Origin: a bacterium | GTDB lineage: Bacteria; Orphanbacterota; Orphanbacteria; Orphanbacterales; Orphanbacteraceae | Assembly: GCA_025782575.1 (NCBI GenBank) | Contig: JALGYY010000028.1 | Location: 90,247 to 154,246 of the forward strand | Direction of reading: 5' to 3' | DNA length: 64,000 nt | Part shown: piece by piece, positions 24,814 to 40,994 of the stretch | How positions within the stretch are numbered: the stretch's first letter is position 1 | Layout of the letters: each line of letters opens with the position of its first letter | Position numbers and translations under genes: made by a program | Notes under the pieces: model-generated | Told to the model about the DNA's origin: nothing | Databases searched by the model: none | What the model saw: the letters and a program-made list of their open reading frames with translations, nothing else

Positions 24814-25458
24814 ATGGATCCTCTGGAAATTATCGCTGCCACGGCGGACCCTTCGTTTGCGACAGACGAAGGTGGTCGCGTTGTAATCTGGAACCCGGCG
24901 GTAGAACGTCTGCTCGGCTACAGAGCCCAGGACGTCCTGGGCCGGTCTTGTCATGAGGTCATCTGCGGCCGGGATATATTCGGAAACCGCTTCTGTGTCG
25001 AACTCTGCACGATCATGAGCATGGTTCAGCGTGGTGAAGGGATCCGCCGGTTCGAACTGGATGTCCGAAAGTCATCAAGCGAGGTCTTTCGCGCGTCAAT
25101 CACAATTGTTGTGATACCGGGGCCGCGAGAATCACAGTTCACCATCGTTCACATCATCCTCCCTCTTGAAGGGGATTCGGCCCGATCGGCCGTTCCGGTC
25201 GTTGGTCCTGAACCCGGGTTGTCCATTCCGATTCCTGACGAAGGCGAGTCGCTTACTGAGCCGGTCTCGCCGCTGACGGCACGAGAACTCGAGGTACTTC
25301 GTCTGATGGCCAAAGGGACGAGTACCCGCGAGATCGCTGACGCCCTGTTCATCAGTATTGCCACCGTCCGGAACCACGTTCAGCACATTCTGAGCAAGCT
25401 CGATGCTCACAGCAAACTCGAAGCAGTAGCCCTCGCTCTTCAGAATCGCCTCATCTGA
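24814..25458 (+). CDS. PAS-LuxR transcriptional regulator with a four-cysteine PAS domain
   Basis: 214 residues. Residues 1-115 form a PAS domain (DPSFATDEGGRVVIWNPAVE). Its middle holds four Cys (46, 51, 61, 65) in SCHEVICGRDIFGNRFCVEL, a spacing suited to metal, Fe-S or thiol redox sensing. After a Pro-rich linker, residues 150-212 are a LuxR/NarL helix-turn-helix (LTARELEVLRLMAKGTSTRE, then SIATVRNHVQHILSKLDAHS). There is no receiver domain, so it is a one-component regulator. AGGAA lies 8 bp before ATG. It sits 127 bp upstream of the electron-transfer genes in the same direction and is the likely regulator of them, an inference from position. Confidence 0.88.
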   Translation: MDPLEIIAATADPSFATDEGGRVVIWNPAVERLLGYRAQDVLGRSCHEVICGRDIFGNRFCVELCTIMSMVQRGEGIRRFELDVRKSSSEVFRASITIVVIPGPRESQFTIVHIILPLEGDSARSAVPVVGPEPGLSIPIPDEGESLTEPVSPLTARELEVLRLMAKGTSTREIADALFISIATVRNHVQHILSKLDAHSKLEAVALALQNRLI

Positions 25459-25585
25459 CACTATTTCCTGGGAATGATGCATTTGCATCATGATTTTGAT
25501 TGATTTGGCGGATGGTAATGGTGTCAAACACCCCCGATATTGGATACAGGAGCAATGCGATGTATCCAGAACCGAGGGAGTAAAA

Positions 25586-27097
25586 ATGAGTTATTCGCGA
25601 CGCTTGAAATACAACGCTTTCGCCGGATTCCACCTGTGGGGGATGGCCTTCATTCTTGTCTGTACCGCGCTCTGGACGAGTCCCGCCGAAGCCACTCCGG
25701 CGTTTGCCCGGAAGTACGGAACCAGTTGTCTGACGTGCCACATCGTCTATCCTAAGCTGAACGCCTACGGAAATGCCTTCCGGCTCCTTGGTTACCAATT
25801 ACCTGATGAGACCGAGGACATGATCAAGCAGCCCGATACCAAATTGGGGGCCGAGGCGTACAAAAGAGTTTGGCCGGATGCCGTCTGGCCGAACTCCATC
25901 CCCTCCAGCCTCCCCTTCGCCCTCGCGACTGAATTCTTGGTGCGAAGCAGCTCTGAAGCTGAGGGCGGACCCGATGTCAACAGTGACTTCCTCTTTCCCT
26001 CGGGCACGGAAATAATCGCTGCCGGCACAGCGGGCGACAATATCGCCTACTTCGGAGAGATCGCTTTTGAAACCGAAGTCGAAGAGGGGAGTTTCGAGAG
26101 CAAAGCATTTATCCCGCATATCGATATTCGTTTTGTTCGACTGATCAAGAATTCGCCCGTCCTGAACGTCAAAGTCGGCCTGTTCCAACCTGAGATGGTA
26201 GTTGCCTTTGACCATGCACGGCGGCTGACGATCGCCAACTACGACGCCATGTTCGGTGTATCTACTGCCCAGCCGGGTGGCGGTTCTGAGGTTGGTGGTG
26301 GCGGGCACCACGGCGGGGGAGGAGGCATATCACTTCCAGCTGTCGCCCGCGGGTTAGAGTTCTATGGCGTCGCTGCCCAACGTTTCCAGTGGTCCGCTGC
26401 CGTCGTAAACGGTTTCGAACCGGGCGTGGAGACATTCGACGCTAATTCAGGTAAGGACCTGATGGGGAGGATCGCCTACAAGTATGGCGGTATGGCTCTC
26501 GACGGGTCGAATGCAACAACGTATACGACGAGCTCGAAGAACTGGCGAGAGCGCTCCATTCAGGTCGGCATATTCGGTTATCGCGGAGACGGCAAGGGGG
26601 TGCTTCTCAACGCTCCGGCGGCTCATGAAGACGAACACGATCTCAAGCTCGCCGCCGATGACCCCCCGACGGTTGTGGAAGACGAAGATTTCACCCGAGT
26701 CGGAATCGATTTCAATCTCTTCTTCGGCGATCTCAATCTTTTTGGTGCCTATGTCCACGGCGAAGACGACCTTCGTGATCCGACGGCGGGATCGGGGGAC
26801 GACCACGAGGATGATCATGTTGAGAAGGTCAGCAACGAGGACGAATTCTTCGGGACATTTGAATACGATGCGTTCTTCCTCGAGGCTGACGCCGTTCTGC
26901 ACTATCCGTGGCTGCAAGGAATTCTGCGATACGAAATGGTCGATTTCCCCGACAGAGACATCGACAAATACGAGAAGGGTATTTTCTCCGTCGTGGCCCT
27001 GGTCAGGGCAAACGTCAAAGCGATCTTTGAGCATGACAGGGATCTGAATGAGTCAGAGAACTGGGACCTGTGGTGGGGAACCGCGATCGCCTTCTAA
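25586..27097 (+). CDS. Fused mono-haem cytochrome c-porin, Cyc2-like
   Basis: 503 residues from ATG 25586 (GAGGGAG upstream). A signal peptide ends near SPAEA (residue 36). The mature N terminus is TPAFARKYGTSCLTCHIVYP, with haem motif C48-x-x-C51-H52, then KLNAYGNAFRLLGYQLP. This layout, FAR..CxxCH..P.L..FG..F...GY, is that of Cyc2-type outer-membrane cytochrome-porins. Residues 90-503 are beta-rich with alternating hydrophobic strands, Gly/His-rich and acidic loops, and a C-terminal Phe, as expected of an outer-membrane barrel. Cyc2 oxidises Fe(II) at the cell surface in iron oxidisers; related porins of unknown substrate also exist. The next gene is a cupredoxin, 16 bp downstream. Confidence 0.75.
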   Translation: MSYSRRLKYNAFAGFHLWGMAFILVCTALWTSPAEATPAFARKYGTSCLTCHIVYPKLNAYGNAFRLLGYQLPDETEDMIKQPDTKLGAEAYKRVWPDAVWPNSIPSSLPFALATEFLVRSSSEAEGGPDVNSDFLFPSGTEIIAAGTAGDNIAYFGEIAFETEVEEGSFESKAFIPHIDIRFVRLIKNSPVLNVKVGLFQPEMVVAFDHARRLTIANYDAMFGVSTAQPGGGSEVGGGGHHGGGGGISLPAVARGLEFYGVAAQRFQWSAAVVNGFEPGVETFDANSGKDLMGRIAYKYGGMALDGSNATTYTTSSKNWRERSIQVGIFGYRGDGKGVLLNAPAAHEDEHDLKLAADDPPTVVEDEDFTRVGIDFNLFFGDLNLFGAYVHGEDDLRDPTAGSGDDHEDDHVEKVSNEDEFFGTFEYDAFFLEADAVLHYPWLQGILRYEMVDFPDRDIDKYEKGIFSVVALVRANVKAIFEHDRDLNESENWDLWWGTAIAF

Positions 27098-27113
27098 GGA
27101 GAGGAACAAAAAC

Positions 27114-27710
27114 ATGAAACCCAACATCAAACTCGGCTTGACCGTACTTGTTGCTGCTCTGGCGCTGGCATCAGGGGCCAGCGCGGGCTCCCTTGTCGGA
27201 AAGGTGATCTGCAAAGGTCTTCGCAGCAGTGCGAACGCCATTGTCTACGTTGACGTAATCCCCGGAAGGACATACGAAGCACCGGAAGCCCACGCCCTCG
27301 TGGACCAGAAGAATATGGTGTTCGAACCTCATGTTCTGCCGGTAATCGAGGGTACATCAGTCGACTTCCTGAACAGTGATCCGGTGTTACACAATGTTTT
27401 TTCGCCCGACAAATGTGCTCAGAAATTCAATCTGGGGAGCTGGCCGCAGGATGAGAAGCGCAGCTTCACTTTCGAAGAGCGGTGTGTTTCTACCATTCTT
27501 TGCAGGGTACATCCCGAAATGGAGGCCTATATCCTTGTCGTCCCGACGCCCTTTTATGCGGTAACGGCAGAGGATGGAACGTTCTTCATTGCGGACGTTC
27601 CCGACACGGTTCTGACAGTGAAGGCCTGGCACCCGAAGCTCAAGGAACAGGATCTCGAGGTTCTGGTCGCGGGAGATAGCGTCTCGGTGGAGTTCGTACT
27701 GAAACGCTAG
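27114..27710 (+). CDS. Periplasmic cupredoxin-like protein with C-terminal carboxypeptidase-regulatory-like domain
   Basis: 198 residues with a Sec signal peptide (cleavage near ASA, residue 24). The plastocyanin-type copper site is visible: His93 in VLHNVFS, Cys130, His133 and Met136 in LCRVHPEMEAYI, the H-C-H-M set of type 1 copper. Residues 145-198 form a separate beta-sandwich (YAVTAEDGTFFIADVP) like those of TonB- and carboxypeptidase-regulatory-like modules. It would carry single electrons in the periplasm. It sits between the cytochrome-porin and the flavoprotein of the bc module, 10 bp from the latter. Confidence 0.82.
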   Translation: MKPNIKLGLTVLVAALALASGASAGSLVGKVICKGLRSSANAIVYVDVIPGRTYEAPEAHALVDQKNMVFEPHVLPVIEGTSVDFLNSDPVLHNVFSPDKCAQKFNLGSWPQDEKRSFTFEERCVSTILCRVHPEMEAYILVVPTPFYAVTAEDGTFFIADVPDTVLTVKAWHPKLKEQDLEVLVAGDSVSVEFVLKR

Positions 27711-27719
27711 TGGAGACGT

Positions 27720-29591
27720 ATGATGGGGGAGCGGGTTAATCGCGAATGGCTCAAGAGCAATTTCCCTTGCCACGCTGCGTGTCCGGTAGGGACCGAAGCG
27801 GGACGGTATGTCGCTCTCATCGCGGAAGGACGATACCGGGAGGCGTACGCCGTCGCCCGCCGCCCCAATCCGCTGGCGTCCATATGCGGCCGTATCTGCT
27901 CTGCTCCGTGTGAGAGCGTCTGCCGGCGGAGCGAGGTCGATTCGCCGGTAGCGATTCGAGCGCTGAAGCGGTTCATCACCGAACGGTTCGGGGTGGAAAG
28001 CATGATCGACCTGGAGGTTCTTCGCGAGATTTATGGAAAGCGCGGGGTGCAGCATCCAGACGACAGAGTCGCCGTCATCGGAGCCGGCCCCGCAGGACTT
28101 TCCGCCGCCCATGACCTTGCCTTGCGCGGTTATCCTGTCACTCTTTTTGAAGCCCAACCGGTTGCCGGAGGCATGCTCCGGCTCGGCATTCCCGAGTACC
28201 GCCTCCCTAGAGAGCTTATCAAACTCGAGGTCAACGCGATTCTCTCCCTCGGCGTCGATCTGCTCGTCGGTCAGCGGCTCGGGCGCGACTTTTCCATCAG
28301 CAGTCTTCGGGAGCAGGGTTATAAGGCGATCTTTCTCGCAGTGGGCGCGCAACGCAGCCGGGACCTCCAGCTACCAGGTGTCGACCTGGACGGTGTCATG
28401 AAGGGTGTCGAATTTCTTCTGAATGCCAATATGGGCTACCGGGTGGAACTGGGGGATAAGGTCGTCATCCTCGGCGGAGGCAATGTCGCCATTGATGTAG
28501 CTCGTATGGCGTTACGCTCCAATCTACCGGAGGACGCGATCAATCCCAGTATCAACATCGTAACGGCGCTCGACGTCGCCCGTTCGGCCGTTCGATTCGG
28601 CGCCAAGGAGATTCACGTCGTCTGTCTCGAGTCACAGGAGGAAATGCCGGCGGCTCCGGAAGAGATCGAAGAAGCAGGTCGCGAGGGAATCATCTTTCAT
28701 CATCGCCGTGGTCCGTCTCGCATCCTGGGGCAGAATGGCCGCGTCACCGGTCTCGAGACAGTAGAATGCGTTTCTGTCTTCGACCAGCATGGCAAGTTCA
28801 ATCCCCGTTTCGCGGAAGGGAGCGAGCTTTCCATGGCCGCTGACACCGTTATCATGGCGATCGGACAGGTCGCCGATCTCTCATTCCTGGAACCGGATGA
28901 CGGGATCGAGATCACCCCCATGAAGACGATCGGCATAAACCACGAGACATTGGCGACGAGTGCTCCCGGGGTCTATGCGGGTGGCGACGCCGCTTTCGGG
29001 CCGCGGATCGCCATCGAAGCTGTTGCCGACGGTCGCCGTGCCGCAACCTCAATTCATGAGTATCTGCGAGGATCGACTGAGCCGGCAGAGGCGGTGGAGG
29101 TCATTCTGCGGCCCCTTCCAGGGTTCAAGCGCGAACTCGACTATGAGGCCCTCCCCCGGCAGAACCCTCCGAAGCTCCCTATCGCCCGGAGAGTCGGCAT
29201 CGCCGAGGTGGAGCAATGTTACACCGAGGAAACGGCGCGACGCGAAGCCTCACGCTGCTTCCGCTGCTGGATCAACACCACTTTCCGCGAAGATTTCGTG
29301 ACGGGAAGCGAGTGCATCCTATGCGGGGGGTGTGCTGACGTTTGCCCGGAAGACTGCATCGAGTTCGTCCCGGTTTCGGAAGTGTCTGCGGATCCTCTCT
29401 TGCTGGAGGATGCCGTCGCGGAATTCGGAGAAGCTGCGAATTCGCTCTTCGAGGAGAACGCTGTCGGCACGGTTCTAGTCAAGGACGAGACGGCGTGCAT
29501 TCGATGCGGCCTCTGTGCCGCACGTTGTCCGGCCTCGATCATCACAATGGAGGAGTTTATTCTGGAGGATCGATCGTATGGAACCGCATGA
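27720..29591 (+). CDS. GltD-like FAD/NAD(P)-binding Fe-S oxidoreductase with C-terminal ferredoxin domain
   Basis: 623 residues. The N-terminal helical Fe-S domain has Cys 17, 21, 56, 60, 64 and 68 (FPCHAACPVG, ICGRICSAPCESVCRR), as in GltD and NfnB. FAD-binding GxGxxG is at 121 (VIGAGPAGLSAAHDLALRG) and the NAD(P) Rossmann motif at 251 (VILGGGNVAIDVARMALR). The C terminus is a two-[4Fe-4S] ferredoxin (CILCGGCADVCPEDC and CIRCGLCAARCP). No glutamate synthase large subunit is present; instead Rieske and cytochrome b genes follow, the Rieske start overlapping its end. It probably links the bc-type complex to NAD(P). Direction and partner are inferred. Confidence 0.9.
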   Translation: MMGERVNREWLKSNFPCHAACPVGTEAGRYVALIAEGRYREAYAVARRPNPLASICGRICSAPCESVCRRSEVDSPVAIRALKRFITERFGVESMIDLEVLREIYGKRGVQHPDDRVAVIGAGPAGLSAAHDLALRGYPVTLFEAQPVAGGMLRLGIPEYRLPRELIKLEVNAILSLGVDLLVGQRLGRDFSISSLREQGYKAIFLAVGAQRSRDLQLPGVDLDGVMKGVEFLLNANMGYRVELGDKVVILGGGNVAIDVARMALRSNLPEDAINPSINIVTALDVARSAVRFGAKEIHVVCLESQEEMPAAPEEIEEAGREGIIFHHRRGPSRILGQNGRVTGLETVECVSVFDQHGKFNPRFAEGSELSMAADTVIMAIGQVADLSFLEPDDGIEITPMKTIGINHETLATSAPGVYAGGDAAFGPRIAIEAVADGRRAATSIHEYLRGSTEPAEAVEVILRPLPGFKRELDYEALPRQNPPKLPIARRVGIAEVEQCYTEETARREASRCFRCWINTTFREDFVTGSECILCGGCADVCPEDCIEFVPVSEVSADPLLLEDAVAEFGEAANSLFEENAVGTVLVKDETACIRCGLCAARCPASIITMEEFILEDRSYGTA

Positions 29592-30057
29592 AGATAAGAA
29601 CAAAGGCGATCTTTCGCGACGGAAGTTCTTCCAGACGGCGGGAATCACGGCTTGCGCGCTTGTCTCAGGGGGAGCATCGATCCTGGGATTTGATTTCCTT
29701 CGCCCCCGCGTGCTCTTTGAACTTCCGACCAAGTTCACCCTTACTCGCCCTGATGCCATCGAAGTCGGATCGGTCATAACGGACGAGCCGCACCACGTCT
29801 ATGTGGCCCGCTCTTCCCATGGTTTTCGAGCCCTCTCTTCTGTATGCACACACCTCGGTTGCATTACGCGCTACAGCCCGGATGAGGGGATCATCGCGTG
29901 CCCCTGCCACGGCAGCAAATTCGCGCTCGACGGGGAAGTGATCGCCGGTCCGGCGCCTCGGCCGCTCCCCTGTCTCCAACTGGATCTCTCCCCGAGCGGG
30001 TTGATAGTCGTGGATACATCGATCGAAGTGCCGCAGGAAACGGTATTCAAGCTCTAA
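29578..30057 (+). CDS. Rieske [2Fe-2S] subunit of a bc-type complex
   Basis: 159 residues. A Tat-type signal ([12 protein letters not shown], residues 12-23) precedes one membrane-anchor helix. The Rieske ligands are C90-T-H92-L-G-C95 and C108-P-C110-H111-G-S, both complete. ATG at 29578 lies 14 bp inside the end of the flavoprotein gene. It passes electrons from quinol to the cytochrome c subunits. Confidence 0.94.
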
Positions 30058-30067
30058 GGAGCATGAT

Positions 30068-30799
30068 GTGAAATTGGAAAAAATGATCACAGGTAGCCGC
30101 GTGTGGCGCTCGATCGTACGCCACGGGGTGGAGCCGACGAACAGGAATCGTGTTCTGACAGTAGTTCAGAATGTTTTCCTTCACCTTCATTCCGCCAAGG
30201 TGCGTCGAAGAAATCTGGAGTTCTCCAGCACATACTATCTCGGGGCCGTCTCGCTGATCCTCTTCGCGATTCTTGTCGGTACCGGGATCGTTCTGATGAT
30301 TTACTATCACCCTTCTGTACCACAAGCCTACAATGACATGAAGGAACTCAAGTTCGTCGTAGGCAGCGGTATGTTCCTTCGCAATATGCACAGGTGGGCT
30401 GCTCACGGTATGGTGATCGTCGTCTTCCTCCACCTTCTTCGTGTTTTCTATCACAGAGCGTACAAACCGCCGCGGGAGTTCAACTGGGTTGTCGGCATTG
30501 TCCTGCTGCTCATGACTCTGCTCCTCAGCTATACCGGCTATCTTCTTCCGTGGGATCAGCTCGCGTTCTGGGCGGTATCGGTCGGCACGAACATGGTGAA
30601 AGCTGTGCCCGTACTCGGGGACAGGATCCGCTATCTCCTTCTCGGAGGGAACGTCGTCGGGGAGAGCGCGCTTCTTCGTTTCTATGTGCTTCATTGCGTG
30701 ATCCTTCCCCTTGCGCTCACTATCGGAGTGGGGGTTCATCTCTGGCGCGTACGGAAGGATGGTAGCGTGGCCGGATCGTCCGGGAGGAAGCGAGGATGA
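30068..30799 (+). CDS. Cytochrome b6-like subunit
   Basis: 243 residues, four membrane helices. Haem b ligands are His108 and His122 in helix B and His209 and His224 in helix D. The 14-residue gap between the last pair is the b6f-type spacing, and separation from subunit IV is also b6f-like. [20 protein letters not shown] is the Qo-site region. GTG start at 30068. Overlaps the next gene by 4 bp. Confidence 0.95.
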
Positions 30800-31509
30800 G
30801 AAAGGAACCGTCATCGAGCCAGGAACTCCGGAAGTCTGACGATGCAAGAGGGATGCCGCGCCGGATCGCACTCGTCCGGCGGGAAGCCCCCGCCCAATTG
30901 CTCGAAGATCGGAGCGAACTCGTCACGACCGCACCGCACCTGCTGCTCCGTGAGGTCATCGTCTTCCAGATATGCGTGATCGTTCTCGCGATCGTCTCGA
31001 TATTATTTGACGCTCCTCTCGAGGGTATCGCCGATCCCGAACACACGCCGAACCCGGCGAAAGCCCCGTGGTATTTCCTCGGACTTCAAGAGCTGCTCCA
31101 CTACTTCCCCCCCATCGTTGCCGGAGTGCTGATTCCCGGTCTCGTCGTCCTCGCAATAGGTGTGATGCCCTACTTCCGGGTGAACTGGGAGTCAACAGGG
31201 CTCTACGAGCAACCGTGGAAGAAAACCATTGCCCTGGTAAGTGGTATCGTCGCCGTCTCCGTGGTGATCTTCGTCATATTCCACACCTGGGTGGTGCTCG
31301 TGCCCACGCTGGTTATTTATGGGTTGATGATTCTGCCCGGCCTCCCGTTCTGCCCCGCTCGCTTGAGGGGCGTTCTCGGACGTGTTCACCTGGCCGATTG
31401 GATCATGACCTGGTTCGTCATCGTTGCAATTCTCCTGACGTTGACGGGTGTTTTCTTCCGTGGCCCCGGATGGAGCTTTGTCTGGCCGTGGCAGGGAGGT
31501 ACCCAGTGA
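30796..31509 (+). CDS. Cytochrome b C-terminal (subunit IV-like) protein
   Basis: 237 residues. After a charged N terminus there is a membrane helix, the Qo-region stretch [20 protein letters not shown] (close to the PEWY region of subunit IV) and about five further helices. It is longer than subunit IV (about 160) because of two or three extra C-terminal helices, as in many bacterial split cytochrome b genes. Its stop overlaps the next ATG by one base. Confidence 0.9.
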
Positions 31510-33506
31510 TGAGGAACGACGGGGGTGGTCTCGATCGGATCTGGTTCTGGTTCGCGGCGATGAGCTTTGTCTTCCTGGTGGTGCTCGCCATCTCTCCCAT
31601 CAAAGATTATTTTCGAGAGTATCGGAAGTATCAGATTGACTATCGGGATCAATTACTCGAACGAGCCGGCACATCGAGGGAGCTTCGCGACGCCAATCGT
31701 GAGGGTGTGCGAATTCGACAGATCTGGAATCCTGACTATCCCAACCGCGTCGACCGATGCACCTCGTGCCATCTGGGTGTCGAAAACCCAGGCATGGCGG
31801 ATGCATCTCCGCCGCTTCGCACTCACCCGATGACGCCGCACACGCCAGAGCAATTCGCATCCTTTGGCTGTGTCACATGTCATCGCGGTCAGGGGCGTGC
31901 AACGACAATGATGGATGCACATGGGCTCGCTTCCGACTGGGCGACACCCATGCTTCCGCTCCGTTATACGGAAGCTTCCTGCGGCACCTGCCATATGGAC
32001 GAGGAAGTGCCCGAAGCAAACCTTCTCTCTCGAGGCCGGACGTTAATGGCGGAACTCGGGTGCTATGCGTGCCACGAGGTCGATGGACATGAGGCGTGGG
32101 AAAGTGACGCCCCCGATCTGGACGGTCTGTCCCGAAAGACGTCTCCCGAGTGGCTGAGAACATGGATTGCTGACCCGCAGAGCGTCCGTCCGACAACGAA
32201 AATGCCATACATCCAACTCGGGCAGAGCGAAATCGATTCTCTCGTCGCGTTCCTCTGGACGCGGCCGGCCGGTGAAGACGATTTTCTGCAGGACGAGGAA
32301 AACCCGGCCGGCGATCCTGACCGGGGGGAGACGCTGTTTCGGGAATCACGATGCATCTCCTGTCACACCGTTGATGGTCGAGGAAACGGAAGCGCGGCGG
32401 AGCTTTCCGGCATCGCTTCCAAGGTCAACAGGCGCTGGCTCATAGAATACCTCGAAAACCCGCACGCGCTTCAGCCGGAAACCAAGATGCCGCGCTACTA
32501 TTTCACGCGGCAGGATCTCCTCGATCTAAGCCAATATTTGATGGACGAACTCTGGGATCCGGAAGCACCTCCTCCTGTAGAGCAAGCATTCCGCCCGCCC
32601 CAGAAGATGGTGGAAGGGGGGATGCGCACCTTCCGGAAATACGGGTGCTCCGGTTGCCATCAGATCTCCGGATTGACCGATCGATCGAGGATCGGTCCTG
32701 AACTGACCGGTATCGGCCGAAAGCCTGTGGATCAGCTTGACTTCGGACGGCGCGACGATCTTCCGCGAACGCTTCACGACTGGATCGGGGCGAAGGTCTC
32801 GAGTCCTCGATCATTTCGGGATGGTCTCAAGATGCCGCAGTTCATACTGGAGGGGGAGGATCTGACTGCTGTGATTACTGCGCTCCTCTCGAACACGGGG
32901 GAAGTCATCCCCGAGGAATACCGGGTAGAGAGGGTGATCGCGAACTATGATCCTCCCGGTCGTTTCGGTGAGCTGGTCGATCGCTACCGGTGTCTCTCCT
33001 GCCATGAGGTGGAGGGTGTCGGGGGGGACATCTCGACCGCACCACTTACTGTCGAGGGAAGCCGCGTCCAGGAATCGTGGCTGAAGAATTACCTTCTCCG
33101 ACCTTCGACGATTCGTCCGATCCTGACGGATCGCATGATTCCTCTCCGGATGCCTGAGGAAGACGCGGCATTCCTCGCGAATTTCATGCAGAACGTCTAT
33201 GTGGATGACGACATCCCCGCCCGCCTCTTTTCAGAAGAACCCGATCCTGCGAATGTTCGCCGGGGTAGTCACCTCTTCTACGAGAGGTACGGTTGCCAGG
33301 CGTGTCACATGATCGATGGGCGAGGTGGCTATTTCGGGCCACTCCTCGATGAAGCGGGGGTTCGTCTGAAGCCGGGATGGGTCTACTGGTGGGTTCTCGG
33401 CTCACAGAGATGGCGCGACGATGTCCGGTGCCCCGACTACGGAGTACCAGATAGAGACGCCTTGGATCTTGCGGCCTTCATTTCATCACTAGGGAGAACC
33501 CCATGA
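31509..33506 (+). CDS. Membrane-anchored octahaem cytochrome c
   Basis: 665 residues from ATG 31509 (TGATG overlap with the previous stop). One N-terminal membrane helix (residues 11-29) and eight CxxCH motifs at Cys 84, 121, 158, 185, 282, 380, 495 and 596. Several haems are followed by a KMP or RMP tripeptide (about 231, 326, 441, 547), the usual distal Met of class I cytochromes, so the chain looks like repeated mono-haem domains. It would accept electrons from Rieske or cytochrome b in the periplasm. It overlaps the mono-haem gene by 4 bp. Confidence 0.92.
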   Translation: MRNDGGGLDRIWFWFAAMSFVFLVVLAISPIKDYFREYRKYQIDYRDQLLERAGTSRELRDANREGVRIRQIWNPDYPNRVDRCTSCHLGVENPGMADASPPLRTHPMTPHTPEQFASFGCVTCHRGQGRATTMMDAHGLASDWATPMLPLRYTEASCGTCHMDEEVPEANLLSRGRTLMAELGCYACHEVDGHEAWESDAPDLDGLSRKTSPEWLRTWIADPQSVRPTTKMPYIQLGQSEIDSLVAFLWTRPAGEDDFLQDEENPAGDPDRGETLFRESRCISCHTVDGRGNGSAAELSGIASKVNRRWLIEYLENPHALQPETKMPRYYFTRQDLLDLSQYLMDELWDPEAPPPVEQAFRPPQKMVEGGMRTFRKYGCSGCHQISGLTDRSRIGPELTGIGRKPVDQLDFGRRDDLPRTLHDWIGAKVSSPRSFRDGLKMPQFILEGEDLTAVITALLSNTGEVIPEEYRVERVIANYDPPGRFGELVDRYRCLSCHEVEGVGGDISTAPLTVEGSRVQESWLKNYLLRPSTIRPILTDRMIPLRMPEEDAAFLANFMQNVYVDDDIPARLFSEEPDPANVRRGSHLFYERYGCQACHMIDGRGGYFGPLLDEAGVRLKPGWVYWWVLGSQRWRDDVRCPDYGVPDRDALDLAAFISSLGRTP

Positions 33507-33991
33507 GGAAGACCACCAGGATCCTCGTCTATCTCGCTGTCGGGTTCGGTTTTGTGTTGGCCTGGCTCCCGGCAGGACGAAGTCTTCTCTTCGGAAGCGA
33601 TCCGACAGACATAGACATGAACGACTCTCTTCAGACTGAAGACATTATTACGGATGATGCCTGGAGAACGCCCATTCCGGACTTAGGTTACCGCGAGCGG
33701 GAAGGCCGGGCTCTCTTTCGCCACTATTGTGCCCTGTGCCACGGGCAGAGCGGCGAGGGGGACGGGTTCAACGCCTACAACCTCGATCCTAAGCCGCGTG
33801 ATCTCTCCGACCATGAGTTCCAGACGGCACAAACAGACGAGGACCTTGCGGAAGTCATCGGGGGTGGTGGTGGCGATGCCGGTCTCTCGAACGCCATGCC
33901 CCCTTGGGGAAAGGTCCTTGGTGAGCGGAAGATCGGCTATGTCATCGCCTACTTGAGGACGCTGGCGGACTCGTTGCCGGAGACCGACTAG
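33503..33991 (+). CDS. Mono-haem cytochrome c, class I
   Basis: 162 residues. An N-terminal signal or anchor helix (residues 7-24) and one haem site C76-A-L-C79-H80. SNAMPPWGKVLGERKIGYVI carries the likely Met ligand and the C-terminal helix of the class I fold. It ends the electron-transfer cluster and could be its soluble or tethered carrier. No terminal oxidase gene is in the window. Confidence 0.9.
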   Translation: MRKTTRILVYLAVGFGFVLAWLPAGRSLLFGSDPTDIDMNDSLQTEDIITDDAWRTPIPDLGYREREGRALFRHYCALCHGQSGEGDGFNAYNLDPKPRDLSDHEFQTAQTDEDLAEVIGGGGGDAGLSNAMPPWGKVLGERKIGYVIAYLRTLADSLPETD

Positions 33992-34059: not shown

Positions 34060-34094
34060 TTGACAGATACTATACTGGGGTATTATATTATCCC
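34060..34094 (+). promoter_or_regulatory. Promoter with embedded RcnR-type operator
   Basis: A perfect -35 TTGACA (34060-34065) pairs with a -10 at 34083-34089 (TTATAT with 17-bp or TATATT with 18-bp spacing). Within the spacer lies TACTGGGGTA (34073-34082), matching the TACT-G-tract of RcnR-family operators, and TATCCC at 34089-34094 forms an imperfect inverted repeat with GGGGTA. It lies 33 bp upstream of the regulator gene. Repression by the encoded regulator is inferred. Confidence 0.65.
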
Positions 34095-34126: not shown

Positions 34127-34405
34127 ATGGCACACCTCATTCGCGACAAGAAGAAGCTTCTCAATCGAGTACATCGAATTCGGGGCCAGCTCGATGCCAT
34201 TGAGCGAGATCTGGAAGAAGGGCGCGACTGCACATCGACACTGCAGACGATCGCGGCCTGCCGTGGAGCGATGAACGGCCTCATGTCGCAGGTACTGGAA
34301 GGGCACATCCGGTTCCACGTAGTAGATCCGGACTTGAAGCCCACTTCTGAGCAGGCAAAAGCCGCACAGGAATTGATCGACGTGATCCGGACCTACCTGA
34401 GGTAG
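34127..34405 (+). CDS. RcnR-like metal-responsive repressor (DUF156/CsoR-FrmR family)
   Basis: 92 residues, all-helical DUF156 fold. The metal-site residues of RcnR are all in place: His3, Cys35, His60 and His64 (MAHLIRD, GRDCTST, LEGHIRFHV). FrmR has a different residue at 64, so formaldehyde sensing is less likely and Ni or Co more likely. AAGGGGAA precedes ATG. First gene of an efflux operon; it probably represses its own promoter until metal binds. Confidence 0.9.
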   Translation: MAHLIRDKKKLLNRVHRIRGQLDAIERDLEEGRDCTSTLQTIAACRGAMNGLMSQVLEGHIRFHVVDPDLKPTSEQAKAAQELIDVIRTYLR

Positions 34406-34411
34406 TTGAAT

Positions 34412-35614
34412 ATGAAGCACTGCATTTGGTTCGCAATCGCAATCGCCACAGCCCTGCCGGCTGAGGCCAACGAAGGACGATTCTCTGAGGAGCGGTTCCT
34501 GGCGCCGTTAACAGAGGGGCACCCGGCGATCGTAGCGCTCACGGAGCGCCTTGCGGGCGCGGAGGGTGAGCGACGGGAGGCAAGGGTGATGAACCCGGAG
34601 TTCGGATTTGACCGAGAGGCGCCGGACGGAGCGGCCAATCAGTCAGTTTTCCGGTTGAGCTGGAAGCCGCCGTTGGATGGACGTAGCGGGTTGCGGAAGC
34701 GTGCGGCAGACGCCGGTGTGCGTGCGGCCACAAGTGAGTTCGACTGGGCAAAGTTGCAATTACGGGAAGAGCTTCGAAGCGCATACGCCGAGTGGGCGCA
34801 GGCGGCAGAGCGGCGCGATCTCTTGTCCGCGCATGTGACCGTGATGAAGCGGTTAGCCGAGCGGGCAAGAGTGCGGGCGGAAACCGGGGAAGAGTCGGGG
34901 CTCGGTGCGCGGAGGCTCGCGCTTGCCGCTACCGAGGTGCAGAGCAAATTCGCTCAGGCCGAAGCAATGTTCGTTCTCGGAGAAGCAAAAGTACGGGTTG
35001 TTTACCCGGAGCTCCGACAGGGCGTTCAGCCGATTCGGCCTGCACTGCCTGTGGTGCCACCGAAACTAGACTGGTCGAATCGGCCGGACATTGAAGTGAG
35101 GCGTTTCGAAGTGCAACAAGCGGAGTTGAAGAAGCGGTTGAGTGGCCGATATTTGGAATTTCCAGAGCTCACCGCGGGATGGACTCGTTTTGACGAGGCA
35201 CCCGGCATAGTTGAAGGTCCCGTGCTCGGAGTGAGCTGGAGTGTACCGATTTTTGATCGTAATCAGGGTAGACGCCAACAGGACGCTCGAAAAGTAGTTA
35301 TCGCTGAGGCCAGACTCGAGCTTGCAATCGCTACAGCGCAGGCAGAGTTGGAAGCGGCGCATGGCGCCTACGCGCTGCTCCGGGCGGCGGCCACCGAGGT
35401 GACGACCGTTACGGAAGACGCAGACGGACTTGTGGAGAGCGCAACGGCCTCTTTTCAGGTCGGTGAGAACACGCTGACGGATCTGATGGAGACACTTCGC
35501 TCCGTTCTAAGCAGTCAGATTACTGCAATGGAACTTCACTACAACGCACTTGAGGCGCACCGTCACTTGGAACTGAGCGCGGGAAGGTCTCTGAGTACCG
35601 GAGGTATGGAATGA
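34412..35614 (+). CDS. TolC-family outer-membrane factor of an RND metal efflux pump
   Basis: 400 residues. Short signal peptide (to about EAN), then the OEP/TolC pattern of long alternating helices (LREELRSAYAEWAQAAERRD; later ETLRSVLSSQITAMELHYNA) in two repeats. ATG at 34412 is used; TTG at 34406 is the alternative. It overlaps the adaptor gene by ATGA. It forms the outer-membrane channel of the tripartite pump. Confidence 0.9.
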   Translation: MKHCIWFAIAIATALPAEANEGRFSEERFLAPLTEGHPAIVALTERLAGAEGERREARVMNPEFGFDREAPDGAANQSVFRLSWKPPLDGRSGLRKRAADAGVRAATSEFDWAKLQLREELRSAYAEWAQAAERRDLLSAHVTVMKRLAERARVRAETGEESGLGARRLALAATEVQSKFAQAEAMFVLGEAKVRVVYPELRQGVQPIRPALPVVPPKLDWSNRPDIEVRRFEVQQAELKKRLSGRYLEFPELTAGWTRFDEAPGIVEGPVLGVSWSVPIFDRNQGRRQQDARKVVIAEARLELAIATAQAELEAAHGAYALLRAAATEVTTVTEDADGLVESATASFQVGENTLTDLMETLRSVLSSQITAMELHYNALEAHRHLELSAGRSLSTGGME

Positions 35615-37203
35615 TAAGGCTTCCCGTGGTGCTAGTACCGATGCTGCTACTTGTCTGGGGGTGTGGCGGACAGAGTGGGTCTCAGAACGACGTCCACGAA
35701 GAAGATGAGGGTTGGGCAGTGACGGCGTGGGGCGAGCACTTCGAAATCTTCGCTGAAACGGGCTCGCTCGTTGTGGGTCGGACAGTAAAATCGCACACAC
35801 ACGTTACAGTGCTCCCGGAATTCTCGGCACCGCTGGAAGGCATTGTCGAGGCTGTCTTCCGTGCGGCGGACGGTTCGGAAACAACTTTTCGGCGGGAGGA
35901 AACCCTCCGGGCCGGAATATTCTCGATTGAAATCGAACCGGAGGCAGAAGGGACGTTCGACCTGCTGTTCCGCGTGATCGTCGCAGGCCGTACGGAGGAA
36001 ATCCCGGCAGGCCGAGTGCGCGTGGGGACTGCGGATGCCCCTGGTGGGCTCATCACTTCCCACGCGCACGAAGATGGGGGCAGCCATGCAGACCATCAGG
36101 AGAAACGAAACGAGGGTGGTGGGGTTCAGGCGATCTCCTTCTTGAAGGAGCAGCAGTGGCGAACGGCATTTTCAACGGATTGGGCCACTGAAGGAACAGT
36201 CCATCTTGTGGCGAGAGGGCCGGGACATATCCGCCCCGTGGCCGGAGGGGAAATCGTCCTGACCGCGCCGCTGGACGGAATAGTAGTCGGCGATCCATGG
36301 CCCTACGTTGGTTTCGAGGTCGAACACGAAGCGGTTCTGTTTGAACTCACCCCTCGAGTGGCGGCAGGGCGAAGCCTCGCCGAACTCGCGGCGATACATA
36401 CGGAGAAAGAATCTGCCCTCAATCTGGCGGAGGATCGGTTGGCGCGGCTGGAGCGGCTCCTCCCGCTTGAAGCTGTGAGTCGTGCCGAGGTGGAGACTGC
36501 ACGAGGACTGGTCACGACACTGCGCGCTCAGCATGCGGCGGCAGCTGGTGATCTTGCCGCCGCGCGAGCCGGTCAACGGGGCTCGACAAGTAGCGTGGGC
36601 CGAGTATCCGTTTCGGCACCATTCAACGGGCAGATCGCTGAAGTCCTTGTGAGACCTGGCGAGGTGGTGGTGGCGGGGGAAACGCTCGCCAGGTTAGTCC
36701 AGGTGAAACCGGTCTGGGTAGAGGTGTTCCTCCAACCGGACAAGGCAGAACTGTTCGACGGGAAGCCGGGCGGATTGTCCGTTCGCGGACCCAATGGCAC
36801 ACCGCCCGTGTCCTTCGGACCGGACGAGGTGCGGCTCGTCTCTCGATCACCGGAGGTAAGCCGCCGGACTCACACGGTCACCTGCATTTTTGAAGTCTCG
36901 GGCGCAGTTGAGAGCCTTCGGCTCGGCAGTGCCGTGGAGGCCGAAGTTTTCCTGCCGAAGACAGAGCATGGCATCGTGATCCCGACATCGGCTGTAGTGG
37001 ACGACGGCGGCGTATCAGTCGTGTACATCCAGCTGGACGGGGAAAGTTTCATACGCCGGGAGATCGAAGTGCGAGCGCGGGAAGGAAGCTCGCTGCTGGT
37101 GGATGGTCTGACAATCGGCCAGCGTCTCGTGACGGTGGGTGGATCAGCAATTCGGCGCTCAACGCTCGTTTCGTCAGGCGTGGGCGAAGGACACGTCCAC
37201 TAG
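35611..37203 (+). CDS. Periplasmic adaptor (membrane-fusion) protein of the efflux pump, CzcB/CusB-like
   Basis: 530 residues, a lipoprotein by its signal (LLLVWGC, Cys near 18). Residues 30-150 form an extra N-terminal beta-domain, followed by a His-rich stretch (SHAHEDGGSHADHQEKR) that may bind metal. The adaptor part has a lipoyl/barrel-sandwich domain (PLDGIVVGDPWPYVGFEVEH), a coiled-coil hairpin near residues 240-320, and a second half (VSAPFNGQIAEVLVRPGEVV). It bridges the RND pump and TolC-like channel. Longer than usual (about 400) because of the N-terminal domain. Confidence 0.9.
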   Translation: MIRLPVVLVPMLLLVWGCGGQSGSQNDVHEEDEGWAVTAWGEHFEIFAETGSLVVGRTVKSHTHVTVLPEFSAPLEGIVEAVFRAADGSETTFRREETLRAGIFSIEIEPEAEGTFDLLFRVIVAGRTEEIPAGRVRVGTADAPGGLITSHAHEDGGSHADHQEKRNEGGGVQAISFLKEQQWRTAFSTDWATEGTVHLVARGPGHIRPVAGGEIVLTAPLDGIVVGDPWPYVGFEVEHEAVLFELTPRVAAGRSLAELAAIHTEKESALNLAEDRLARLERLLPLEAVSRAEVETARGLVTTLRAQHAAAAGDLAAARAGQRGSTSSVGRVSVSAPFNGQIAEVLVRPGEVVVAGETLARLVQVKPVWVEVFLQPDKAELFDGKPGGLSVRGPNGTPPVSFGPDEVRLVSRSPEVSRRTHTVTCIFEVSGAVESLRLGSAVEAEVFLPKTEHGIVIPTSAVVDDGGVSVVYIQLDGESFIRREIEVRAREGSSLLVDGLTIGQRLVTVGGSAIRRSTLVSSGVGEGHVH

Positions 37204-37224
37204 CAGTCAGGGAGACGAAAGAGC

Positions 37225-40200
37225 ATGCTCAAACATCTGATCCAACTATCGCTCAACCATCGCACCCTGTGTCTTATGATCGCCGCCGTCCTGTTTGTCG
37301 GCGGGGGATACTGGGTCACGAGGGTCCCTGTCGACGTGTTTCCCGACCTGACCGCTCCGACGGTCACTGTGATCACGGAAGGGCTCGGAATGGCGCCGCA
37401 GGAGATGGAACAGCTGGTCACCTTCCCTCTCGAGTCGGCATTGAACGGAGCGCCCGGCATCCGCCGGGTGCGCTCGGTTTCGGCGGCCGGGATTTCAGTT
37501 ATCTGGGCGGAATTCGAGTGGGGTGAGGACATCTACCGTGCACGGCAGGTCGTCACCGAACGGACACAGAAGGTCTCTTTGCCGGCACAGGTAGATGCGC
37601 CGGAGCTTGGTCCGATCAGTTCAATCATGGGCGAGATCACGTTTATTGCGTTGACCGCCGATGAGGAGAAAATTTCCCTCAAGCAGCTGCGACGGATTGC
37701 GGAGACGGTCGTGCGGCGCAATCTTCTCGCGATCCCCGGGATTTCGCAGGTTGTGCCGATCGGCGGCGAGGTGCGGGAGTTCCAGGCAGAGTTACACATC
37801 CCGACTCTCGTGCAGCAGGGCATGAGTGTCGCGGAAGTTACCGCCGCGCTCGAGGGGGCGACGCGCAATCCAACGGCCGGTTTCCACGTAGACCAAGGGC
37901 AGGAATATCTGGTTCGCGGACTCGGCAGGGCCCGCACAGTAGAGGATCTGCGGGCGGCTGTTGTACGAGTCAGTGATGGGGTGCCTCTAACCGTGGGCGA
38001 TGTCGCGACCGTTCTTGAGGGGACAGAACCACAGCGGGGTACGGCTTCGTACAACACGAAACCTGCCGTCATCCTGAGTGTCCAGAAACAACCGGGTGCT
38101 AACACGCTTGAACTGATGAAGAAGGTCAACGCAGTACTTGTCGAGCTTGAAGAGACGCTGCCGGACGGCGTGGTGATCGAGAAAGAGAATTTTCGGCAGT
38201 CAGATTTTATTCAGGCTGCCATTCACAACATCTCGGTTGCCATGCGTGATGGTGCGCTGCTTGTCGTGCTGATTCTCATCGTCTTTCTGGGCAACATGCG
38301 GACGACACTAATCTCCGCCGTCGCGCTCCCCCTCTCGCTCATCGCCGGCGTTCTTGTAGTGGCTGCCTTCGGCGGGACGATCAACACGATGACGCTTGGT
38401 GGATTGACGATCGCGATCGGGGCGCTTGTGGATGATGCCATTATCGTAGTGGAAAACGTGTTTCGAAAGCTGCGAGAGGAGTGGCGGAAACCCGAAGCGG
38501 AACGCCGGCCCACCCTGCAGGTCGTATATGGCGCATCCCGTGACGTCTTAAACGCGGTTTTCTTCGCGACACTGATCATCATGCTCGTGTTCGTGCCTCT
38601 GTTCTTCCTTCCCGGGATGGAGGGACGCCTCCTGCGCCCGCTGGGGTTTGCATATCTCGCGGCTCTGGCAGCGTCGCTATTGGTCTCCATTACGGTGACC
38701 CCGGTGCTTTGCTACGCTCTGCTGCGAAGCCCGCGTCTGCTCGAGAAGCGAGAGTCGTGGCTTATGCGGACGCTGAAGGTCCGTTACCGTAAAACGCTTG
38801 ATCACGCTCTCGCCCGGCCGAGAGCGATCTACGTCACGATGACTCTTCTGCTGGTGGGAGCAGTCGCTCTTCTTCCATTTTTCGGGCGCAGTTTCCTGCC
38901 GCCGTTCAACGAAGGATCGCTGACAGTATCCGTAGTAAGTGCTCCCGGCATCACGTTGGAAGAGAGTGGTGAGATCGGGCGTGCGGTGGAGGAAGCTTTA
39001 CTCGAGTTTCCGGAAACCGTTTCGACAAGTCGGCGGACCGGGCGAGCGGAGAAAGATGAACACGTCCAGGGTGTAAACGCCTCGGAGATGGAGGTTGTGC
39101 TTCGTCCCGGGCGGCCGAAGGAAGAACTGCTGGCCTCCATGCGGAGGGCCGTCGCAACGATCCCGGGGGCAAGTGTCAGCTTTGGGCAACCGATCAGTCA
39201 TCGCATTGATCACATGATATCCGGGAGCAAGTCCAATCTGGCTCTCAAGGTCTTCGGCCCCGATCTTTCCGTGATCCGAGACCTCACGAGACAGATCGAA
39301 GCAGTGATCCGGGATGTCCCCGGGATCGTGGACTTGAGCAATCAGGAGCAGGCGAGCATTCCGCAGCTGCTCATCGACTTCGATCGAACGGCGATGGCAC
39401 GCCACGGCATGAGTGCGGTGCAGCTTGCGCAGGTAGTCGAGGCGGCGTTCCAGGGGACCGTGGCCGGAGAGATCTTCGAGGATGGTATCGCTTCGCGGGT
39501 GGTTGTGCGTTTCCCGGAACGATTGCGCGAGCACCGGGATCAACTCGTGGAACTACCGGTGACCACTCCGGACGGACGAGTGCTGCGATTGGAAAACGTC
39601 GCCGACGTTCGCTTCGATCTCGGGCCGAGTCTCATACGTCGTGAGAACGTACAGAGAATGGGAATGCTGACCGCGAATATCGCCGGCGCCGATCTCGCGG
39701 GGACCGTGGAAGCGGCACGGGGTGCCGTCGAAGAAGCAGTTTCGCTTCCGACCGGCTATCGAATCACGTATGGCGGTCAGTTCGAAGAAGGGGCGCGCAG
39801 CGCTCGTAATCTCTCGTTGCTGTCTGTTCTCATTTTGGGTGCGATGTACGCACTCCTGTTCATCGCGTTCCGACGTCATCGACATGCACTGATCGTCTTA
39901 GTGAACCTGCCCCTCGCGATGATCGGCGGCGTCGTCGCCGTAGCCCTCGGCGACAGGGTCTTGAGTATCGCGGTACTCGTCGGATTCATCACGCTCTTTG
40001 GTATCGCTACGCGGAACGGGGTGTTACTCGTGGCTCGGTACCAGGACTTGATGGCAGACGGGCACGCTCTTCCGGAGGCAGTGCGACGGGGCTCGATGGA
40101 ACGGCTGGCCCCCGTGCTCATGACCGGGCTAGCCTCGGGATTAGCTCTAATTCCCCTGGTGCTCGCCGGACACGAACCAGGCAATGAAATCCAGAGCCCG

Positions 40201-40353
40201 ATGGGCCAAGTCATCCTTGGCGGTTTGATCACATCGACTCTGCTGAATATGGTCGTTGTGCCCGTTCTCTTTGCACGCTGGGGTGGTGGACCGGTCGAGC
40301 GCCAACAACCGATAGAACAATTCATCACAGAGAAGCAAGGGCCCCGATCATGA
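37225..40353 (+). CDS. Heavy-metal-efflux RND transporter, CzcA/CusA-like
   Basis: 1042 residues, the length of HME-RND pumps, with about 12 membrane segments and two large periplasmic loops. The start (LNHRTLCLMIAAVLFVGGGY) and YRVPVDVFPDLT-like segment (TRVPVDVFPDLTAPTVTVI) are typical. Proton-relay acids lie in helix 4, GALVDDAIIVVENVFRKLRE (Asp, Asp, Glu). It exports divalent or monovalent metal cations with protons; the RcnR-like regulator and the NicO-like partner favour Ni or Co. It overlaps the next gene by ATGA. Confidence 0.94.
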   Translation: MLKHLIQLSLNHRTLCLMIAAVLFVGGGYWVTRVPVDVFPDLTAPTVTVITEGLGMAPQEMEQLVTFPLESALNGAPGIRRVRSVSAAGISVIWAEFEWGEDIYRARQVVTERTQKVSLPAQVDAPELGPISSIMGEITFIALTADEEKISLKQLRRIAETVVRRNLLAIPGISQVVPIGGEVREFQAELHIPTLVQQGMSVAEVTAALEGATRNPTAGFHVDQGQEYLVRGLGRARTVEDLRAAVVRVSDGVPLTVGDVATVLEGTEPQRGTASYNTKPAVILSVQKQPGANTLELMKKVNAVLVELEETLPDGVVIEKENFRQSDFIQAAIHNISVAMRDGALLVVLILIVFLGNMRTTLISAVALPLSLIAGVLVVAAFGGTINTMTLGGLTIAIGALVDDAIIVVENVFRKLREEWRKPEAERRPTLQVVYGASRDVLNAVFFATLIIMLVFVPLFFLPGMEGRLLRPLGFAYLAALAASLLVSITVTPVLCYALLRSPRLLEKRESWLMRTLKVRYRKTLDHALARPRAIYVTMTLLLVGAVALLPFFGRSFLPPFNEGSLTVSVVSAPGITLEESGEIGRAVEEALLEFPETVSTSRRTGRAEKDEHVQGVNASEMEVVLRPGRPKEELLASMRRAVATIPGASVSFGQPISHRIDHMISGSKSNLALKVFGPDLSVIRDLTRQIEAVIRDVPGIVDLSNQEQASIPQLLIDFDRTAMARHGMSAVQLAQVVEAAFQGTVAGEIFEDGIASRVVVRFPERLREHRDQLVELPVTTPDGRVLRLENVADVRFDLGPSLIRRENVQRMGMLTANIAGADLAGTVEAARGAVEEAVSLPTGYRITYGGQFEEGARSARNLSLLSVLILGAMYALLFIAFRRHRHALIVLVNLPLAMIGGVVAVALGDRVLSIAVLVGFITLFGIATRNGVLLVARYQDLMADGHALPEAVRRGSMERLAPVLMTGLASGLALIPLVLAGHEPGNEIQSPMGQVILGGLITSTLLNMVVVPVLFARWGGGPVERQQPIEQFITEKQGPRS

Positions 40354-40994
40354 TCTCGCTAAGCGGTACAGCAGCGATTTACGCGACGGCCGTGTCGATC
40401 GGGATGCTCCACGGCGTCGAACCGGGCCACGGCTGGCCGATCGCAGCCGTATTCGCCCTCCGTCGACGGAACCGCTGGTGGTATGGCATCTGGGCGGCGG
40501 TCATTCTCGCTGCAGCACACCTGACATCATCCTTTGCAGTCGTTGCCGTATATGCACTGGCGGATCACTTTTTTGAGCTGCAGGAGTTTCGGTGGATGCA
40601 CCTGGTGGCGGGTGGTCTGCTGCTCATCATGGCCGCCCACCAGTGGCGTGGCGCGGGGGAGCACCGGCACGATCATGGCGATCCGAAGACTTCAAAGAAG
40701 CAACTCGCGGCCGGCAGTCTCCTGGGCCTGGTGGGCTTCGCGTTCGCTCTCGGTTTCGTCCACGAGGAAGAGTTCGCAATCATCGCATTAACCGCCGGGA
40801 AGGCAAATCTCTGGTTGGTAATGGGAATCTACGCATCGGCGGTAGCGCTGAGCCTCATTCTGCTCACGATCGCGGCGATCGCCACTTTCAATCGCTTCGA
40901 GAAACAGATGAGCCGCTACCAGAGTCGTCTGCCCCGTATCAGCGCAATATTCCTCGGGGTCATGGGGCTCGCCTATGTGTTTCGGTTGATCTGA
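40350..40994 (+). CDS. NicO/RcnA-like nickel-cobalt transporter
   Basis: 214 residues, six membrane segments. Helix 1 has SIGMLHGVEPGHGWPIA (His21, His27), the conserved motif of RcnA/UreH-type Ni/Co transporters, and a His-rich loop HRHDHGD joins helices 3 and 4; FVHEEEFAIIALT is a second acidic motif. RcnA proteins export Ni and Co; here one is paired with an RND pump under one repressor. Overlaps the RND stop. Confidence 0.82.
   Translation: MISLSGTAAIYATAVSIGMLHGVEPGHGWPIAAVFALRRRNRWWYGIWAAVILAAAHLTSSFAVVAVYALADHFFELQEFRWMHLVAGGLLLIMAAHQWRGAGEHRHDHGDPKTSKKQLAAGSLLGLVGFAFALGFVHEEEFAIIALTAGKANLWLVMGIYASAVALSLILLTIAAIATFNRFEKQMSRYQSRLPRISAIFLGVMGLAYVFRLI

Follow-up and report, generated by a model that had tools for sequence, protein, structure and literature searches.

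The MtrA/MtrB pair, alone or together with OmcA/MtrC, is a known trans-outer-membrane electron conduit, and Cyc2-like genes commonly serve as markers of iron oxidation. Cyc2 proteins are defined by the motif AXPXFAR[Q/K][T/Y] before a single CXXCH, by PXL after it, and by a 16-strand OprO/OprP-like barrel (Keffer et al., PMC8406198). The textbook Acidithiobacillus route, which takes electrons uphill to nicotinamide adenine dinucleotide (NAD), combines Cyc2 with a blue copper protein and a bc1 complex (PMC2754497); the Geobacter ext cluster joins an outer-membrane porin to a related set of Rieske and cytochrome b proteins (PMC5877670); and the Rieske/cytochrome b complexes of Kuenenia, for which formation of NAD(P)H, the reduced form of NAD or its phosphate, by electron bifurcation has been proposed, contain an NAD(P) oxidoreductase, a multihaem cytochrome c and a five-helix subunit IV (PMC12954380). 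Here we analyze a 64,000-nucleotide stretch of an Orphanbacterota genome (assembly GCA_025782575.1, contig JALGYY010000028.1, positions 90,247 to 154,246; hereafter the window), in which eight consecutive genes encode a Cyc2-like cytochrome-porin, a cupredoxin, a flavoprotein, a Rieske protein, cytochrome b, subunit IV, an octahaem cytochrome c and a monohaem cytochrome c. These genes are a real operon, whose gene order is shared by bacteria from seven or more phylum-level groups. Each of its modules is already known, and what appears new, judged by the open-licence papers searched, is their combination in one conserved operon.

All eight genes named in the original prediction were recovered as open reading frames (ORFs) on the forward strand, between positions 25586 and 33991, and their identities were confirmed by Pfam and NCBIfam matches, haem motifs and structure models. 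The gaps between them are short or negative (16, 9, -14, 10, -4, -4 and -4 bp), while 127 and 135 bp separate the set from its flanking genes, so that the genes are likely to be transcribed as one unit and translationally coupled. To follow the operon in other bacteria, about 85,000 named genomes were scanned with a cupredoxin alignment as the seed, yielding 80 loci; owing to this seed, the fractions obtained from the set overstate linkage to the cupredoxin. An independent search, restricted to one phylum, was seeded with cytochrome b in 247 Acidobacteriota genomes. Genes in the related loci were called with a home-made caller, mostly in metagenome-assembled genomes, although the loci of named Geothrix species come from isolates. 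All eight genes are present in 42 of the 80 loci, with identical order in 41, and many of the remaining loci are cut by contig ends. Besides the phylum of the window, the carriers of the full set belong to six named phylum-level groups: Acidobacteriota (isolates of Geothrix campi, oryzisoli and terrae, as well as Holophagaceae, Thermoanaerobaculia, Terriglobia and Ca. Polarisedimenticola), Ignavibacteria/Bacteroidota (Ignavibacteria and others), Calditrichota, Neomarinimicrobiota, Zixibacteria and Eisenbacteria. The cytochrome-b-seeded search returned the same operon in 11 further loci, and in a wider sample, genome G200 from another phylum had the complete operon with unchanged gene order. 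The original prediction had proposed a search for co-occurrence of the eight genes, and they clearly recur together.

Conserved order and the independent cytochrome b seed rule out a chance neighborhood. Moreover, a Cyc2-like porin lies beside the cupredoxin in 45 of 48 flavoprotein-bc loci with at least 1.5 kb of upstream sequence, and the pairwise distances of the operon proteins correlate with one another, with 0 of 300 permutations for each of the five pairs tested. The phylogenetic tree places the window together with Ca. Polarisedimenticola (Acidobacteriota) and an Eisenbacteria genome, a cross-phylum grouping that makes transfer between phyla likely. Conservation within the small phylum of the window itself was considered and rejected, since among the seven genomes covered the version with the bc complex occurs only in that of the window; of the others, G004 carries the Qrc version described below, and G005 carries the flavoprotein-bc genes together with NarGH.

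The most informative result is the exchange of modules between related loci, and the strongest clue to function is the replacement of the porin by Mtr genes in a few of them. In locus L105 (6420-9952), the porin slot is occupied by an MtrA-type decahaem cytochrome (258 bits, cut-off 192) and an MtrB/PioB barrel (PF11854, 403 bits), and in L098 (6498-9952) it contains an MtrA-type decahaem cytochrome with a long barrel ORF broken by ambiguous bases. The slot of L130 (1337-8239) holds an MtrB/PioB barrel, a seven-haem cytochrome, an OmcA/MtrC decahaem cytochrome (460 bits, cut-off 209) and an MtrA-type decahaem cytochrome, and that of L145 (3801-9908) holds the first three of these. Because L105 and the pair L130/L145 nest inside the porin-bearing operons with a support of 1.0, the Mtr genes have replaced the porin on the same operon backbone. 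The slot is thus very probably a trans-outer-membrane electron conduit, and the Cyc2-like porin that occupies it in the window would very probably serve the same function; the outer-membrane role put forward in the original prediction has therefore gained support. The inner end of the operon is exchanged as well: in G004, L119, L126 and L098, a Qrc-like molybdopterin-FeS-NrfD module stands in place of the flavoprotein-bc genes, and these loci retain the cupredoxin/octahaem set plus a porin or porin substitute.

The porin has no Pfam or NCBIfam match at default thresholds and no NCBIfam match up to an E-value of 10 (the presence of an ExtI model in NCBIfam being unchecked), and its sequence matched no solved structure; structural comparison alone succeeded. 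Its N-terminus, ATPAFARKYGTSCLTCHIVYPKL, fits the Cyc2 consensus and includes a single CxxCH. The AlphaFold model, built with 43 relatives, contains 16 long strands with a mean predicted local distance difference test (pLDDT) score of 74; Foldseek matched this model to porins, OprP and OprO included, and VIA-align ranked OprP (Z 24.6) and OprO (Z 24.5) at the top. Every Cyc2 feature that could be assessed is therefore present in the window porin, namely the N-terminal motif and, as modelled, the 16-strand OprO/OprP-like barrel, which bears out the description of this protein as Cyc2-like in the original prediction. The low-confidence loops of the model are rich in His, Asp and Glu (GGGGHHGGGGG, AHEDEHD and DDHEDDH) and could bind metal. 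The cupredoxin likewise has no Pfam or NCBIfam match at default thresholds, and its matches to copper proteins are sub-threshold only. Its copper ligands (H93, C130, H133 and M136) are invariant in 37/37 relatives, and its model (pLDDT 94) matches amicyanin, a purple cupredoxin and plastocyanin.

The flavoprotein comprises Pyr_redox_2, Fer4_20 and 4Fe-4S dicluster Pfam domains, and its best PDB matches are Nfn and formate/molybdopterin oxidoreductases that bear the same module. The closest solved structure to the Rieske protein is that of Kuenenia (9rk4, E 4e-28; next match 5e-16), whereas cytochrome b best matches cytochrome b6 in the PDB and, below the curated cut-offs in NCBIfam, ExtP (256 bits versus 290). 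Subunit IV scores 59.7 bits against ExtQ (cut-off 150) and carries KAPWYF in place of PEWY, a motif kept in its relatives. The octahaem cytochrome, which scores 88.4 bits against ExtS (cut-off 100), has eight CxxCH motifs in the window and eight haems in 35 of 43 orthologues; a single CxxCH is found in 42 of 43 orthologues of the monohaem cytochrome. At the position of the cysteine that binds haem c_n (Cys35 column), the window cytochrome b has a tyrosine, and the cysteine is absent from 63 of 64 complexes that combine flavoprotein and cupredoxin (present in one); we therefore claim only the status of a related variant of the Kuenenia-type complexes. His34, a candidate ligand of a proposed interface haem b, is conserved in 63/64 of these complexes. 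It was rejected as a marker of flavoprotein association, since it is likewise conserved in most complexes without the flavoprotein. The resemblance of the bc part to known Rieske/b clusters that the original prediction had pointed out holds, and it extends to the anammox clusters with an NAD(P) subunit.

The analysis establishes the gene content, the joint conservation of the genes, their motifs and folds, and the slot exchanges. As read from sequence, the functions assigned here, including the order and direction of electron transfer and the final acceptor, are predictions. We lean towards a reading in which the operon encodes a single trans-envelope electron chain, with its main flow outward or with the properties of a reversible conduit. 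Cytoplasmic NAD(P)(H) would exchange electrons with the flavoprotein, which carries flavin adenine dinucleotide (FAD) and 4Fe-4S clusters and would be docked on a b6-type Rieske/cytochrome b complex working on the quinone pool. From the Rieske protein, electrons would pass to the anchored octahaem cytochrome, then to the monohaem cytochrome c and the periplasmic cupredoxin, and the single-haem porin would take them across the outer membrane. In the main, outward direction, quinol would be oxidized, the bc complex would conserve proton-motive force, and electrons would leave to an external acceptor of fairly high potential, for instance Mn(IV), humics, chelated Fe(III) or an electrode. For its part, the NAD(P) subunit would either feed in NAD(P)H or recover some of it by bifurcation, and in the presence of a reduced external donor the chain may operate in reverse.

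No feature of the sequence sets the direction in which electrons move, and several observations favor export, so that the transfer from a surface donor to NAD(P) envisaged in the original prediction is unsupported. Export is favored by the OmcA/MtrC proteins in the porin slot of L130 and L145, by the analogy with the Geobacter ext cluster, and by the listing of Geothrix and Ignavibacteria, both among the carriers, as Fe(III)-reducing taxa (PMC6344600). RuBisCO, absent from all 46 carriers (0/46), points the same way: iron-oxidizing autotrophy through this enzyme is negative in 46/46, while lithoheterotrophy or another form of carbon fixation would still be compatible with the opposite direction. 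In that opposite direction, a surface donor such as Fe(II) would reduce the porin haem, and electrons would travel via the cupredoxin and the cytochromes c, in part to a terminal oxidase and in part, driven by the proton-motive force, uphill to NAD(P) by way of the bc complex and the flavoprotein, a compact version of the Acidithiobacillus rus plus petI route. Electron uptake of this kind is a serious possibility, though a less probable one than outward flow, and a series of observations weighs in its favor. The porin has the motif and fold of Cyc2, whose characterized members oxidize Fe(II) and so carry electrons inward (PMC8406198); Cyc2, a cupredoxin and a bc complex have the Acidithiobacillus precedent; the NAD(P) enzyme is encoded within the operon itself; the MtrAB-only exchange in L105 resembles Pio/Mto; and the inner module of the variant operons is like Qrc, best known as a quinone reductase. 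Haem-copper oxidases, moreover, occur in 43 of 46 carriers and, among Acidobacteriota, in 20/20 carriers against 185/227 non-carriers (p 0.02, uncorrected for phylogeny), a test that is weakly informative on direction given a background of 81-83% in the Acidobacteriota sample. Against uptake stand, besides the OmcA/MtrC exchanges and the missing RuBisCO, the metal-reducing heterotrophic lifestyle of the best-known carriers and the absence of oxidase genes from the operon.

The same frequency of oxidases would fit an ordinary periplasmic respiration, in which the bc complex reduces the octahaem and monohaem cytochromes and the cupredoxin on the way to a terminal oxidase, the porin haem being structural and the porin merely secreting, anchoring or importing something (copper, haem or a metal). 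Cytochromes c and cupredoxins are the usual oxidase donors, the core occurs without any porin in L166, L169 and L176-L178, and the His/Asp-rich loops of the window porin would suit such a role. We nevertheless consider this explanation improbable, as the haem motif of the porin is almost always kept and 45 of the 48 loci mentioned above have the porin next to the cupredoxin. Returning to the trans-envelope chain, a broader proposal, which we advance tentatively and stop just short of favoring, is that the operon represents a class of modular respiratory chains that span the envelope and are widespread: the outer end of a periplasmic cupredoxin/octahaem/monohaem core would be served by a Cyc2-like, MtrAB or MtrCAB conduit, and its inner end by a Qrc-like complex or by an NAD(P)-bifurcating bc complex. 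Such chains would tie extracellular electrons to NAD(P) through a direct, energy-coupled link. If so, such a link would exist in phyla where no chain of this kind is known.

The features of the window are summarized in the following table.

Features of the operon and its upstream region in the window (positions counted from the first nucleotide of the window)
Feature	Position	Strand	Basis
PAS-LuxR one-component regulator with conserved cysteines, probably controlling the operon	24814..25458	+	PAS and GerE Pfam matches; homologues by the operon in 17 loci
Perfect 18-bp palindrome ATGATGCATTTGCATCAT, candidate operator between regulator and porin	25474..25491	.	Sole copy in window and genome
Cyc2-like single-haem cytochrome-porin (predicted outer-membrane end)	25586..27097	+	Cyc2 motif ATPAFARKYGTSCLTCHIVYPKL; 16-strand AlphaFold model; OprP/OprO likeness
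Periplasmic type-1 cupredoxin with C-terminal carboxypeptidase-regulatory-like domain	27114..27710	+	Cu ligands; model
FAD/NAD(P) oxidoreductase, GltD/NfnL-like, cytoplasmic, with N-terminal Fe-S domain and C-terminal 4Fe-4S dicluster	27720..29591	+	Pfam, NCBIfam and PDB matches
Rieske [2Fe-2S] protein	29578..30057	+	PF00355; PDB match 9rk4
b6-type cytochrome b without the cysteine for haem c_n	30068..30799	+	PF00033; PDB cytochrome b6
Subunit IV, five predicted transmembrane helices	30796..31509	+	PF00032; transmembrane helix count
Octahaem cytochrome c, one N-terminal membrane anchor	31506..33506	+	8 CxxCH
Monohaem cytochrome c, signal-anchored	33503..33991	+	Cytochrome_CBB3; one CxxCH

The eight-gene description requires one correction: the PAS-LuxR gene upstream of the porin is a ninth gene, part of the unit in the closest relatives. 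Its homologues in related loci, nearly all from Acidobacteriota, usually lie directly upstream of the porin, and its product is probably the regulator of the operon. The PAS domain and its homologues share the cysteine pattern C...GxDxxGNRxC...C, which suggests a sensor of metal, an Fe-S sensor or a thiol redox sensor. In Ignavibacteria and relatives, a histidine kinase with NtrC-type and receiver-only regulators is found instead. The palindrome was rejected as a conserved operator, given that none was seen in relatives despite its uniqueness in the genome. Directly downstream of the operon (34127-40994), following a strong sigma-70-like promoter at 34060, lie genes for an FrmR/RcnR-type metal-responsive repressor and for OEP, HlyD-type and AcrB-type proteins, a Cus-like efflux set; as the FrmR-like regulator and efflux genes (34127-40353) are absent beside the operon in related loci, they were rejected as members.

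Further arrangements of the same modules were observed in related loci. A parallel Qrc-like operon, which includes monohaem and tetrahaem cytochromes, is present in L015 (18-11105), L119 (8642-19650), L126 and L098, and genome G200 possesses both the flavoprotein-bc and the Qrc-like types. The core of flavoprotein, Rieske, cytochrome b and multihaem cytochrome is accompanied by NarGH-like enzymes in L016 (7500-17724), L158, L164 and L179; the NarGH-like enzyme is related to the dimethyl sulfoxide (DMSO) reductase type II family and, in L016, has a twin-arginine translocation (Tat) signal. The flavoprotein-bc-octahaem core is also found with neither the porin set nor NarGH, and in L167 (10197-12082) a Cyc2-like porin and a monohaem cytochrome c, without a cupredoxin, lie upstream of flavoprotein, Rieske and cytochrome b. 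Porin, cupredoxin and a hexahaem-type relative of the octahaem cytochrome occur with no quinone module nearby in L137 (3078-8098), L148 (7211-12470), L146 and L147, with a monohaem cytochrome in L146 and L148. Finally, in L063 (10068-15696) and L131 (9572-13464), a cupredoxin is followed by a COX2-like cupredoxin, an eight-helix NapH/NosR-like 4Fe-4S membrane protein and a COX2-cytochrome c fusion, either beside a Cyc2-like porin or inserted into the operon; this set is possibly another redox module.

No description of the combined operon was found in the open-licence papers searched, subscription journals lying outside the search, nor in the portions consulted of papers on Caldithrix, Melioribacter and the quinol oxidases of extracellular electron transfer; within that literature, the original view that joining a bc complex to a Cyc2-like porin and a copper protein is unusual stands. 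For Geothrix, Ignavibacteria and several phyla without cultured members, the operon offers a candidate for the whole path that links the outer membrane to quinone and NAD(P). Metal reducers are among the organisms that encode this Cyc2-like porin, and MtrCAB can occupy its slot; this calls into question the use of such genes as iron-oxidation markers. Since Geothrix isolates carry the full operon, both the way electrons flow and the function of NAD(P)-linked bc complexes are directly testable.

Compared with known systems, the window porin shares with the Cyc2 porins of Acidithiobacillus and Mariprofundus, and with Cyt572 of Leptospirillum, the single N-terminal CxxCH, the AXPXFAR[QK][TY] and PXL motifs and, as modelled, the 16-strand OprO/OprP-like barrel. 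Unlike them, it has a fixed place in one operon with genes for a cupredoxin and an NAD(P)-linked bc complex, and its lineages are not known to oxidize iron. With the Kuenenia complexes (Kustd1480-1485 and Kuste4569-4574), to which the nearest solved Rieske protein belongs, the inner module shares a b6-type cytochrome b, a five-helix subunit IV, an Fe-S NAD(P) oxidoreductase and a hexa- or octahaem cytochrome c that replaces cytochrome c1 or f; it differs in lacking the haem c_n cysteine, and neither an outer-membrane porin nor a cupredoxin is reported for the Kuenenia complexes. The Geobacter extHIJKLMNOPQS cluster likewise unites an outer-membrane porin (ExtI) with a Rieske (ExtO)/cytochrome b (ExtP, ExtQ) complex and multihaem cytochromes (PMC5877670), and ExtP, ExtQ and ExtS are among the best NCBIfam matches of the membrane parts of the window, all under curated cut-offs; however, ExtI is reported to be weakly similar to phosphate-selective porins, and the cluster lists no cupredoxin or NAD(P) flavoprotein. 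In A. ferrooxidans, rus and petI also provide Cyc2, a blue copper protein and a bc complex used for NAD reduction, but the genes are split between two operons, which include an aa3 oxidase, a cytochrome c4 and cytochrome c1, and NADH is formed by reversed complex I rather than by a flavoprotein whose gene accompanies those of the bc complex; the window operon neither contains nor adjoins a gene for an oxidase or cytochrome c1. MtrCAB/PioAB systems occupy the same slot in L105, L130 and L145 (the decahaem cytochrome in L098) and consist of a separate porin and decahaem cytochrome, whereas the window has a fused single-haem porin, and Pfam found no MtrB/PioB barrel or decahaem cytochrome in it. 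The operon is thus a strict member of neither the ext, the rus/petI nor the Mtr systems; by analogy, it would work like a Cyc2 or Mtr conduit coupled to an anammox-type NAD(P)-linked bc complex.

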